The position numbers and the translations under genes are program-made. Shown one piece after another: positions 19,171 to 59,850 of a DNA stretch of 64,000 bases. Source of the stretch: Deferrisoma camini S3R1 (lineage in GTDB: Bacteria > Desulfobacterota > Deferrisomatia > Deferrisomatales > Deferrisomataceae); NCBI RefSeq assembly GCF_000526155.1, contig NZ_JAFN01000001.1:3598264-3662263 (forward strand), written 5' to 3'. The first letter of the stretch is position 1. Each line of letters begins with the position of its first letter. Below the pieces are notes generated by a model. That model did not search any database and was not told where the DNA came from. It worked only from the letters and a program-made list of their open reading frames with translations.

Positions 19171-19180
19171 CGTCATTAAC

Positions 19181-19290
19181 CCGGCGACAAAGCAGACTCG
19201 CTTCTCCAGAGGGCGGGGCAAGGGACCTGCCGTTCCGTGGCCAGACGTCAGAGCTCAGAGGCCAGAGGGCCAGGGCACCCAAGAAGATGG
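19181..19290 (+). repeat. Palindromic intergenic element, copy B (left half only)
   Basis: The 405-base gap between the regulator and the corrinoid gene has no gene. From 19181 it carries ATTAACCCGGCGACAAAG and then GGCGGGGCAAGGGACCTGCC, nearly matching the left end of copy G (59585-59639). The right arm is missing. A run of short repeats (CAGAGCTCAGAGGCCAGAGG) follows, so this looks like a truncated copy. The rest of the gap holds a candidate sigma-54 promoter. Confidence 0.6.
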
Positions 19291-20196: not shown

Positions 20197-20994
20197 ATGA
20201 TCGTCGTTGGAGAGCTCATCAACGCCAGCCGCAAGCAGATCGCCGCGGCCATCGAGGCCCGCGACGCGGCCGCCATCGCCCGGGTGGCCCGCGAGCAGCG
20301 GGAGGCCGGTGCCGACTACATCGACGTGAACGCCGGAACGTTCGTGGGCCAGGAGGCCGAGCTCCTGCGGTGGCTGGTCGCCACGGTGCAGGAGGCCGTG
20401 GATGCGCCCTGCTGCATCGACAGCCCCGATCCCAGGGCGATCGAGGCGGCCCTGGAGGTGCATCGGGGCACGGCCATGATCAACTCGATCAGCTGGGAAA
20501 GGAGCCGGTTCGACGCCCTGGCGCCGCTCCTGGCCGGCACGGACCTCAAGGTGGTGGCCCTGTGCATGGGCGACGAGGGCATGCCCGAGACCGCCGACCA
20601 GCGCTTGGGCATCGCGGACCGGCTGGTCGACGGGCTGTTGCGCAACAACGTGTCGGCCGAGAACGTCTATGTCGACCCCTTGGTCCAGCCGATCTCCACC
20701 CGCTCGGAGTTCGGGGCGGAGTTCCTGCGGGCCGTGGGGGAGATCATGGGCCGGTTCGACGGCGTGCACACCATCTGCGGGCTTTCCAACGTGTCCTACG
20801 GGTTGCCCGAGCGGAAGCTGTTGAACCAGACTTTCGCGGTGATGGCCGTGGCCCGCGGCCTCGACGCCGTGATCGTGAACCCGTTGGACACCCGGCTCAT
20901 GGCCCAGCTGGTGGCGGCCGAGGCCCTGGCCGGCAGGGACCCGTTCTGCATGAACTACCTCAAGGCCTACCGGGCCGGCCGTCTAGAGGCCTGA
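20197..20994 (+). CDS. Methyltetrahydrofolate:corrinoid methyltransferase (pterin-binding, AcsE/MtgA type)
   Basis: A 265-residue TIM-barrel protein of the pterin-binding family that moves methyl groups between tetrahydrofolate and a corrinoid protein. Typical blocks are VGELINASRK at the N-terminus, GADYIDVNAGTF, CIDSPDPRAIEAAL, MINSISWE, VYVDPLVQPIST and CGLSNVSYGLPERK (the strongly conserved GLSNxSxGxP pterin loop). The start follows GGAGG. With the corrinoid protein upstream it makes half of a two-component methyl-transfer module. The methyl donor or acceptor on the other side is not identified. The stop codon lies inside a 13-bp direct repeat that borders a mobile-like element. Confidence 0.88.
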   Translation: MIVVGELINASRKQIAAAIEARDAAAIARVAREQREAGADYIDVNAGTFVGQEAELLRWLVATVQEAVDAPCCIDSPDPRAIEAALEVHRGTAMINSISWERSRFDALAPLLAGTDLKVVALCMGDEGMPETADQRLGIADRLVDGLLRNNVSAENVYVDPLVQPISTRSEFGAEFLRAVGEIMGRFDGVHTICGLSNVSYGLPERKLLNQTFAVMAVARGLDAVIVNPLDTRLMAQLVAAEALAGRDPFCMNYLKAYRAGRLEA

Positions 20995-21295
20995 CCGTTT
21001 CATGCTGAGTTGCGTTCAAACCGAGATCCCTCGGGGGGCGGGGCAAGGGACCTGCCTCCGGCCGGGCGCGAAGCCGAGCATGGGGACTCGCCGCGCAGGC
21101 ACGGGACCGAAGAGCTGGTTTCATGACAACTGGGTGGAATCCAAGCCATTTCGCGATCCGAGCGTCAGAGGCGCTGCCCGGCGAGCGAAGGGGCCGCGCC
21201 CGGCTCTCCGGCAGGTCCCTTGCCCCGCCGAGCAGGGAGCGATAGCGCCTGTTTATCCGCCCGGGTGATAATGCGGGCGAACAGAGGCCTGACCG
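20985..21295 (+). mobile_element. Palindromic element, copy C, bordered by 13-bp direct repeats
   Basis: AGAGGCCTGACCG occurs at 20985-20997 and again at 21283-21295. Between them lies a 285-base element. Its inner arms GGCGGGGCAAGGGACCTGCC (21037-21056) and GGCAGGTCCCTTGCCCCGCC (21210-21229) are perfectly complementary over 20 bases. More pairing lies inside (CCGGGCGCGAAGCC with GGGGCCGCGCCCGG, and CGCCGCGC with GCGCTGCCCGGCG). It has no coding potential. The direct repeat includes the stop codon of the upstream gene, as expected if insertion duplicated its target. This accounts for the 329-base gap before the aldehyde dehydrogenase. Confidence 0.7.
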
Positions 21296-21323: not shown

Positions 21324-22754
21324 ATGCTGTACATCGACGGCACGTGGCGCAAGACCGGGGCGAACGGCACCTTCCCGGTGCACGATCCCGCCACCGGCGA
21401 GGCGATCGGCGAGGCCGCGGACGCGGGCCGCCGCGAGGCGGGCGAGGCGGTGGCCGCGGCCCTTCGGGCGTTCGAGGGGTGGTCGGCCCGCACGGCCTAC
21501 GAGCGCTCCGCATACCTCTACCGGGCGTACCGGATCATGAAGGAGCGGTCCGAGGACCTGGCCCGCCTCATGACCCGGGAGCAGGGCAAACCGATCCGGG
21601 CGGCCCGAAACGAGGTGCGGTACGCGGCCGACTTCCTCCTGTGGTTCGCGGAGGAGGCGAAGCGCAACTACGGCGAGACCATCCCCGCTCCGCGGGCCGA
21701 CCAGCGGTTCCTGGTGCTTCGGCAGCCCGTGGGCGTGGTGGGGGCGATCACGCCGTGGAACTACCCCGTGTCCATGATCACCCGGAAGGTGGCGCCGGCC
21801 CTTGCCGCGGGGTGCACGGTGGTGGTGAAGCCCGCCGAGCAGACCCCTCTGTGCGCCGTGGAGGTGTTTCGGGTTCTGGAGGAGGCCGGGGTGCCGCCGG
21901 GCGTGGCGAACCTGGTGACGGCCCGGGACCCCGAGCCCGTGGCGGCCGAGTTCCTGGAGAACCCGGCGGTGGCCAAGCTCACGTTCACGGGCAGCACCGA
22001 GGTGGGCAAGCTGCTGGCCCGTGCGGCCGCCGACCGGATCCAGCGGGTGTCCCTCGAGCTGGGGGGGCACGCGCCGTTCATCGTGTTCGACGACGCGGAC
22101 CCGAACCACGCGGCCAAGGGCGCGGCCCTGGTGAAGTTCCTCAACACCGGCCAGGCGTGCATCTGTCCGAACCGGATCTTCGTCCAGCGCACCGTGGCCG
22201 AGCCGTTCCTGGAGACCCTGGTGCAGCGGGTGAGCCGGCTGCGCGCCGGGTGCGGGCTGGAGGAGGGGGTGAGCATCGGGCCCCTGGTGGACCGCGCCGC
22301 CCTGGAGAAGGTGGACCGGCAGGTGCGGGACGCCGTGGCCCGGGGGGCCCGGGTGGTGTGCGGGGGCCGGCGGTTGACCGACGATGGGCTGGACCGGGGA
22401 TGGTTCTACGCGCCCACGGTGCTCACGGGGGTGACCCCGGACATGTTGATCTACCGGGAGGAGACGTTCGGACCCGTCGCCCCGGTGTTGGTGTTCGACG
22501 ACGAGGAGCAGGTGGTCGAGATGGCCAACGACACCACCTACGGCCTGGCGGCCTACGTGTACACCCGGGACCTCTCCAGGGCCCTGCGGACGGTCGAGCG
22601 GCTGAGGTTCGGGATCGTGGGCGTCAACGACATCAACCCCACCGCTGCCGCAGCCCCGTTCGGGGGGTGGAAGGAGAGCGGCCTGGGCCGGGAGGGCGGC
22701 CGGGAGGGGCTCCTCGAGTACCTGGAGACCAAGCTGGTGGGGTTCTCGATCTGA
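21324..22754 (+). CDS. NAD(P)-dependent aldehyde dehydrogenase, succinate-semialdehyde-type
   Basis: A 476-residue member of the aldehyde dehydrogenase superfamily. The cofactor region has ITPWNYP and FTGSTEVGKLL. The general base is in LELGGHAPFI, and the nucleophile is Cys279 in NTGQACICPNR. EETFGPVAPVL and the C-terminal GREGGREGLLEYLETK also fit the GabD/SSADH group. The ribosome site is GGGAGGAG. A strong terminator follows. Succinate semialdehyde is a natural guess because a 4-hydroxybutyryl-CoA dehydratase relative lies nearby, but the substrate is not fixed by sequence. Confidence 0.85.
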   Translation: MLYIDGTWRKTGANGTFPVHDPATGEAIGEAADAGRREAGEAVAAALRAFEGWSARTAYERSAYLYRAYRIMKERSEDLARLMTREQGKPIRAARNEVRYAADFLLWFAEEAKRNYGETIPAPRADQRFLVLRQPVGVVGAITPWNYPVSMITRKVAPALAAGCTVVVKPAEQTPLCAVEVFRVLEEAGVPPGVANLVTARDPEPVAAEFLENPAVAKLTFTGSTEVGKLLARAAADRIQRVSLELGGHAPFIVFDDADPNHAAKGAALVKFLNTGQACICPNRIFVQRTVAEPFLETLVQRVSRLRAGCGLEEGVSIGPLVDRAALEKVDRQVRDAVARGARVVCGGRRLTDDGLDRGWFYAPTVLTGVTPDMLIYREETFGPVAPVLVFDDEEQVVEMANDTTYGLAAYVYTRDLSRALRTVERLRFGIVGVNDINPTAAAAPFGGWKESGLGREGGREGLLEYLETKLVGFSI

Positions 22755-31627: not shown

Positions 31628-31935
31628 GAAGCTCCATCAGGCCCCTGCGGGGTCGGGCACCGGGGAAGGGTAACTCTCGTTGGTCCGGGGCCATTGCCGG
31701 CGGCGGGGCAAGGGGCCTGCTTCCGGCCGGGCGCGAGTGCAACCTCCGATCGCCGCGCCTTCGCGTGCCGTTGCCGAAGCAGCCCCTTCGGGCGGAGACA
31801 GCGGATGGCGGGGGAGTTCGACAAGACTACAAACGTTCGGTGGGCGCGGCGAGCCAAGGAGCCGCGCCCGGCGCTCCAGCAGGCCCCTTGCCCCCCAGAC
31901 CGTGATGCTGTGACGCAGGCCTGCTTGAACCGCTA
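31628..31935 (+). repeat. Palindromic intergenic element, copy D
   Basis: This fills most of the 412-base gap inside the liv operon. A left module (from ATCAGGCCCCTGCGG to GGGGAAGGGTAACTC, 31636-31676) is nearly identical to the left module of copy E. The arms GGGGCAAGGGGCCTGC (31705-31720) and GCAGGCCCCTTGCCCC (31879-31894) pair perfectly over 16 bases. The interior shares CCGGCCGGGCGCGA and GGAGCCGCGCCCGGCGCTCC with copies C, F and G. No coding region is seen. Confidence 0.65.
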
Positions 31936-56284: not shown

Positions 56285-56580
56285 GCAGGCCCAAGTCACA
56301 GGCCCGGCGGGCATGGGGTCTGCCGGAGAGCCGGGCGCGGCTCCTATGCTCGCCGCGCAGTGCCTCCAGCGTCTGGACCGCGAAATGGTACCCCTTGCAC
56401 GCAGCTGTGATGAAACCAGCTCCCGTGTCTTGTGCCTGCGCGGCGAATCTCAACGCTCGGCTTCGCGCCCGGCCGGAGGTAGACCCCATGCCCCACACGC
56501 AACGCTCGGGCCGACACTTACGCGAAGTTTGTACCCCGCAAACAGGCCGCCTCGCGGCCTGCCGGAGTTCCACGGTAACC
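56285..56580 (-). repeat. Palindromic intergenic element, copy F
   Basis: This and the adjoining module fill the 402-base gap before selB, with no gene. Arms GGGCATGGGGTCT (56309-56321) and AGACCCCATGCCC (56481-56493) pair perfectly. Read on the reverse strand the interior aligns along its length with copies C and G (CCGGCCGGGCGCGAAGCCGA, CGCCGCGCAGGCAC, GAGCTGGTTTCAT, GGAGCCGCGCCCGGCTCTCC). A GCAAACAGGCCGCCTCGCGG hairpin at 56538 also occurs in copy E. Confidence 0.7.
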
Positions 56581-59577: not shown

Positions 59578-59850
59578 ATGCTGTTAACTCGGCGACAAAA
59601 TAGACGCGCCTCCTCGAGGGGCGGGGCAAGGGACCTGCCTCCGGCCGGGCGCGAAGCCAGGCATTGAGATCCGCCGCGCAGGCACAGGACCGAAGAGCTG
59701 ATTTCATGACAACTCGGTGGGATCCAAACCGTCTCGCGGTCCGAGCGTCAGAGGCGCTGCGCGGCGAGCTAAGGGGCCGCGCCCGGCAGGTCCCTTGTCC
59801 CCGAGCAGGGAGCGGTAGCGCCTGTTTGTCAGCCGGGTTGATAATATAGC
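59578..59850 (+). repeat. Palindromic intergenic element, copy G (most complete)
   Basis: This lies within the 410-base gap between divergent genes. Outer ends TTAACTCGGCGACAAAATAG (59584-) and the complement of GTTTGTCAGCCGGGTTGAT (59824-) form imperfect terminal inverted repeats of about 55-60 bases. They continue into CAAGGGACCTGCC (59627-59639) and GGCAGGTCCCTTG (59785-59797), which pair perfectly. The interior matches copy C closely. Flanking CGGATCG and CGATCCG extend the palindrome. No coding potential. No target duplication was recognised at this copy. Confidence 0.7.

Follow-up and report, generated by a model that had tools for sequence, protein, structure and literature searches.

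In the 64,000-nt stretch of Deferrisoma camini S3R1 DNA analysed here (the window), a 285-nt palindrome lies downstream of a methyltransferase gene between two copies of a 13-bp sequence. This raises the question of whether the 13-mer is the target-site duplication left by a mobile repeat family, as had been proposed in a sequence-only reading, or a peculiarity of this one locus. Here we observed that the family is mobile, duplicating TA where its ends are of IS630 type and TNA where they are of IS5/IS1031 type, and that the 13-mer is not its target-site duplication. What the earlier reading had observed was partly confirmed, and its interpretation was partly supported.

The two 13-mers are real and exact, and no third copy occurs anywhere in the window by exact search (Table 1). 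As had been noted, the left copy takes in the last codons and stop of the methyltransferase gene (GAG GCC TGA, with TGA at 20992–20994), which encodes a product of 265 aa. The 285 nt in between are repetitive and fold as a long imperfect hairpin with perfect 20-nt arms (−86.5 vs −70.7 kcal/mol for shuffles, z −4.4). The 13-mers do not, as had been stated, flank the element exactly, since its conserved ends stop short of them. The left family end starts as TCA-TGCTGAG (21000–21003), 2 nt past the left 13-mer, with TT intervening, and on the right GAAC stands between the last recognisable repeat tip and the second 13-mer. Beyond the TA of the right end, the bases ATGCGGGC (21271–21278) are the tip of another inverted repeat and complete TAATGCGGGC. 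The focal copy is thus a hybrid, with a B-type left end and an A-type right end (types described below), followed by a third repeat tip that belongs to a second IS630 element. The left end being of B type, the copy does not carry IS630 terminal inverted repeats (TIRs) at both ends; its ends, drawn from different transposase classes, do not pair as inverted repeats. As B end, A end and third tip are mismatched, they offer no pair that one transposase would recognise, and the hybrid is probably unable to transpose as a unit. The best NCBIfam match of the downstream aldehyde dehydrogenase is succinate-semialdehyde dehydrogenase, below that model's cut-off.

Table 1. Features of the focal locus, and a second copy of the family, in window coordinates.
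Feature	Position	Strand	Basis
Upstream gene, methyltetrahydrofolate:corrinoid/iron-sulfur protein methyltransferase	20197..20994	+	ORF; NCBIfam NF005719, E 1e-103, above cut-off
Left copy of 13-bp direct repeat AGAGGCCTGACCG	20985-20997	+	Exact sequence match
TCA, TNA triplet before the B-type end; right end without matching triplet	21000..21002	+	Sequence; B/B copies duplicate TNA
B-type terminal repeat TGCTGAGTTGCGTTCAAACC..., family consensus TACCAAGTTGC / TACCGAGTTGCGTTCAAACC	21003..21033	+	Alignment with other copies
Conserved 197-nt palindromic core	21034..21230	+	nhmmer family, inverted repeat, conservation
Perfect inner arms of the core, 20 nt	21037-21056 / 21210-21229		Inverted repeat
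A-type right end (AGCAGGGAGCGATAGCGCCTGTTTATCCGCC-CGGGTGA), IS630-type terminal repeat	21231..21268	+	Alignment of A/A copies; TIR of intact IS630
TA beside the A-type end	21269..21270	+	Sequence; TA target from empty site and IS630 inside core
GCCCGCATTA, third inverted repeat tip (E family; TIR of second IS630)	21269..21278	-	Overlaps TA
GAAC filler, from last recognisable end to second 13-mer	21279..21282	+	Sequence
Right copy of 13-bp direct repeat AGAGGCCTGACCG	21283-21295	+	Exact; AGAGGCCCGACCG in G001
Downstream gene, aldehyde dehydrogenase family protein	21324..22754	+	ORF; NCBIfam matches
Second window copy, A/A element, same core	59585..59842	+	Family search, end typing

Dozens of full matches to the element, and 325 first-look candidates, were found in the window's own genome (G000; 4.24 Mb, one contig), where the arm motif occurs 149 times and its reversed control 0 times. 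A core profile run with nhmmer against 1.264 Mb (60 stretches of 20 kb picked for containing copies, plus the window) gave 131 matches, including 113 of nearly full length. Within GTDB r220, the only records containing a 27-nt core word were Deferrisomatales-type MAGs, and three of the 38 other genomes searched contained matches, two from the same genus and one from the same family. The core is almost always 195–197 nt long, and the outer ~35 nt sort into end types: A ends (TTAACCCGGCGACAAAATAGGCGCG), B ends (TACCAAGTTGC or TACCGAGTTGCGTTCAAACC), and C and D ends, which are located in longer intergenic repeat arrays. A fuzzy end scan returned 19 A/A copies, 19 B/B copies and nine mixed A and B copies, some of these nine calls resting on weak matches; the rest were truncated or had C or D ends. 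The window also holds a truncated A-type copy (19175–19231; TTAACCCGGCGACAAAGCAGACTCGC...GGCGGGGCAAGGGACCTGCC), consisting of the left end and one arm only and located upstream of the genes for the corrinoid protein and the methyltransferase, and two more diverged cores (31702–31896 and 56308–56497) in C- and D-type surroundings with arrays of, for example, AGCCTTCTAGCC and GACCGACGACC. A structured RNA was considered and rejected: no Rfam family matched at E up to 1, and RNAalifold kept 24 pairs with 98% of cells paired and five compensatory cells, too few for a conserved RNA.

Movement of the family was read from 40 flanks mapped onto sister genomes. An A/A copy at 1643327 (gcagcTA...TAgcccc in G000) corresponds to an empty site, gcagcTAgccc, in G002 (gcagcTAgcccc). 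Two B/B copies, at 1962610 (agcccTCA...TCAgtag) and 562667 (gacctcTGA...TGAaagg), have empty counterparts in the sister species G001 (agcccTCAgtag and gacctcTGAaggc, respectively), the TGA of the latter being a stop codon; in G002 an A element lies close to the 562667 site. Because these sites are filled in G000 and empty in its sisters, the family moves, and its footprints are TA and TNA. The proposal of a mobile family therefore stands, on evidence other than the 13-mer, whereas the proposed 13-bp target-site duplication gives way to these shorter footprints.

An IS630 partner for the A ends is resident in G000. An intact IS630-family element (353 aa transposase; NCBIfam transpos_IS630, E 3.5e-73) with TIRs TTAACCCGGCGATTAAATAGGCGC / TTAACCCGGTGGCTAAATAGGCGC is present in three copies, each between TAs and each starting and finishing TTAACCCGG(C/T)G...TAAATAGGCGCG, and the TIRs of A/A copies match it (TTAACCCGGCGACAAAATAGGCGCG vs TTAACCCGGCGATTAAATAGGCGCG in the IS). 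One IS630 copy (L171) has inserted inside a family core, splitting GGCGAGC^TA^AGGAGCC and leaving TA on both sides. Insertion of A-ended elements at TA, with its duplication, is seen at the 1643327 empty site and at L171; except at empty sites and L171, the TA of an A end is indistinguishable from a conserved base pair. At A sites 1328117 and 2330031 a clear TA is lost, and searches of G001 and G002 gave no DDE_3 match. The third tip at the focal right end is carried by a second IS630 element (346 aa, L165) and shared with 178-bp elements of the form TA-GCCCGCATTATTCATGA...-TA. These make up a separate MITE family, E, with TA flanks (L113, L118, L140, L147, L153, L156). The expectation of a single transposase with the same termini thus held for the A ends and failed for the B left end, for which no transposase was found; the focal right tip matches a second IS630.

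The B ends show a different footprint. TNA stands on both sides of 35 of 49 B-ended elements, and the left and right triplets are identical in 30 of these 35, against a mean of 15.5 and a maximum of 26 in 20,000 shuffles. A 3-bp TNA duplication is likewise found at B/B copies, whose empty sites are TCA and TGA, and B-ended elements of 66–132 bp, which contain hardly any core or none at all, follow the same pattern. A transposase flanked by B ends (TACCAAGTTGCGTTCAAA) was not found among PF01609 and PF13359 proteins: PF01609 loci contained B ends only as interrupted MITEs, PF13359 gave no match, and no resident IS5-family element matched the B/B TIRs. Because these searches returned no matching transposase, we place the B ends in IS5/IS1031 by their duplication. 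Among the B-type copies of G000 (562667, 1962610 and 2737663, for example), the triplet that is duplicated often serves as stop codon for the adjacent gene, and insertion therefore rebuilds the stop. Targeting of stop codons was considered as a rule: 14 of 24 duplications coincide with a stop codon that ends a plausible gene, close to the 11.4 expected from the few nearby non-coding TNA sites of a GC-rich genome, and we therefore claim no special specificity. At ~715377–720009 in G000, nested insertions (an IS630 interrupted by an IS200-like element, plus another IS) appear to have divided a B-ended element, whose outer TGA triplets still match.

Against this background the 13-mer is an outlier. 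Among 66 copies whose flanks were compared, those with C or D ends being left out, the focal copy has 13 nt common to its outer flanks, with the match running on into TTTC through a 1-nt indel, and the next-best copy has 9 nt. Recurrence in other copies had been offered as the test of the proposal, and here the 13-mer fails as a family footprint: no independent copy repeats it, and a 13-bp duplication as the family rule is rejected. Nor do the flanks of the hybrid or mixed copies 1683413, 4059425, 341439 and 2135440 contain a long duplication, or the G002 allele that lacks the 2135440 hybrid. The 13-mer is probably a true duplication, unique to the focal copy, and it appears unrelated to normal transposition.

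The sister genomes bear on the age of the locus. G001 carries the same hybrid at the same place with ~98% identity, its right 13-mer agreeing in 12 of 13 bases, and the insertion thus predates the split of G000 and G001. In G002 the gene end occurs once and continues with TTTCC, as the right copy does; a single CTAGGGGCCTGACCGTTTCC there precedes an A element in the opposite orientation, inside which the contig stops. The G002 contig lacks the downstream gene, G001 is filled and G004 is too distant for comparison, and among these genomes an empty allele of the exact focal site with its downstream side was not found. A second focal-locus allele is found on contig 39 of G001 (L089), with a core deletion and an insert of ~54 nt starting TATAAGGGCCCCAATGG; the TATAAGGGCCCC motif of this insert also borders an interrupted copy at 719786 in G000.

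How, then, did the 13-mer arise? Chance agreement between unrelated spacer sequences seems decidedly unlikely: at least 13 nt were shared in 3 of 4290 pairings of unrelated left and right flanks (0.07% for the focal copy alone), and the repeat begins in the gene end and extends, across one indel, to TTTC, though across all 66 copies such a match is a ~5% event. It is also unlikely, if somewhat less so, that the unit from 20998 to 21282 arrived whole, with a duplication of 13 bp (up to ~18 bp) made by a mechanism of neither IS630 nor IS5 type. Such an arrival would account for the exact, extended and exceptional repeat and for the single gene end before TTTCC in G002, and variable duplications of 3–26 bp are known from the 168-bp YPAL/RU-2 of Yersinia (PMC2229807). 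Yet each end has its own transposase class, the two do not form an inverted repeat, TT and GAAC separate them from the 13-mers, and the four other hybrid or mixed copies and the G002 allele show no long duplication. The 3 in 4290 pairings, and the single copy in G002 upstream of that genome's own element, leave some probability that the duplication is linked to the element's arrival.

Alternatively, the gene end may have undergone a small duplication, in tandem or by template switching, before or after B and A elements inserted into the spacer, a reading to which we give about an even chance. The spacer is a repeated target, the oppositely oriented A element of G002 lying a few bases away, and G000 is rich in nested and mosaic elements; against this, an element-free allele with two 13-mers was not found. 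As for the family itself, spread of REP/REPIN-type palindromes by a RAYT (Y1) transposase was considered and rejected as most improbable. G000 does have 12 Y1_Tnp matches, but the elements are ~265 nt long rather than 20–40 nt tagged hairpins beside a Y1 gene, with TIRs, TA or TNA duplications and ends matching an IS630, and four identical Y1 genes lie in an IS whose shared 616–618 nt lack the family ends.

End types change repeatedly over the core tree. In a tree built from 90 cores, the end label changes at least 14 times on the left and at least 16 times on the right, against means of 28 and 33 for shuffled labels and 3 for one clade per label, these counts being rough because branch support is low (54 of 87 inner branches open). 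The cores nearest to the focal core are those of A/A copies. At the hybrid locus 1683413, the B left end is common to G000 and G002 and the right end differs. We consider it very likely that these repeats are a MITE family with swappable ends, that the focal copy is a hybrid and that its 13-mer is a private local duplication. The elements would be high-copy, non-autonomous MITEs of Deferrisomatales, combining a ~197-nt GC-rich palindromic core with interchangeable TIRs. A/A copies would be moved by the resident IS630-family transposase, which would cut at TA and duplicate it, and B/B copies presumably by an IS5-type (IS1031-like) transposase duplicating TNA, an enzyme not found in G000. We infer that hybrids arise by recombination between core-sharing copies; gene conversion and nested insertion are, like recombination, possible routes to a change of end. 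The focal hybrid would be the product of such a swap, with its B left end, its A right end and a third repeat tip of IS630 type, and the 13-mer would be a single duplication at the methyltransferase gene end rather than a footprint of the family.

In most respects the family belongs to known kinds of element. Like the 107-bp RUP of Streptococcus pneumoniae, mobilised by IS630-Spn1 (PMC2229807), it is a high-copy intergenic non-coding element with TIRs that match a resident IS630 and insertion at TA. It differs in organism and sequence, is larger and GC-rich with a long palindromic core, and this core is also found with non-IS630 ends. The B-ended copies resemble MITEs of the IS1031 group of the IS5 family, which targets TNA with an exclusive 3-bp direct repeat (PMC12016507), in that they duplicate TNA, mostly TGA or TCA, but without a matching transposase found. 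YPAL/RU-2 is likewise a palindromic intergenic repeat and its variable duplication length would fit the 13-mer, whereas duplications in the family described here have a constant length of 2 or 3 bp and its TIRs are conventional. The TIMEs and mosaic elements of the Tn3 family (PMC4133298) are also mosaic non-autonomous elements made from miniature TIR elements, but they join one TIR family to different cores, whereas the family described here joins one core to different TIR families.

What is unusual here is a single core combined with ends from two or more transposase families. The locus also carries a warning that a direct repeat beside a single copy is an unreliable guide to a target-site duplication. 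In bacteria, MITEs are as a rule relics left by deletion, each tied to one transposase. Retention of the core while its ends switch between IS630 and IS5 types shows how such a family can outlast its original enzyme, and the polymorphic sites in sister species make end-switching directly testable. It is possible, though we regard it as doubtful, that the core is itself the unit under selection, a platform that has repeatedly acquired ends of two IS630 types and an IS5 type. If so, one non-coding core would have been spread by several enzymes in turn, outliving each.
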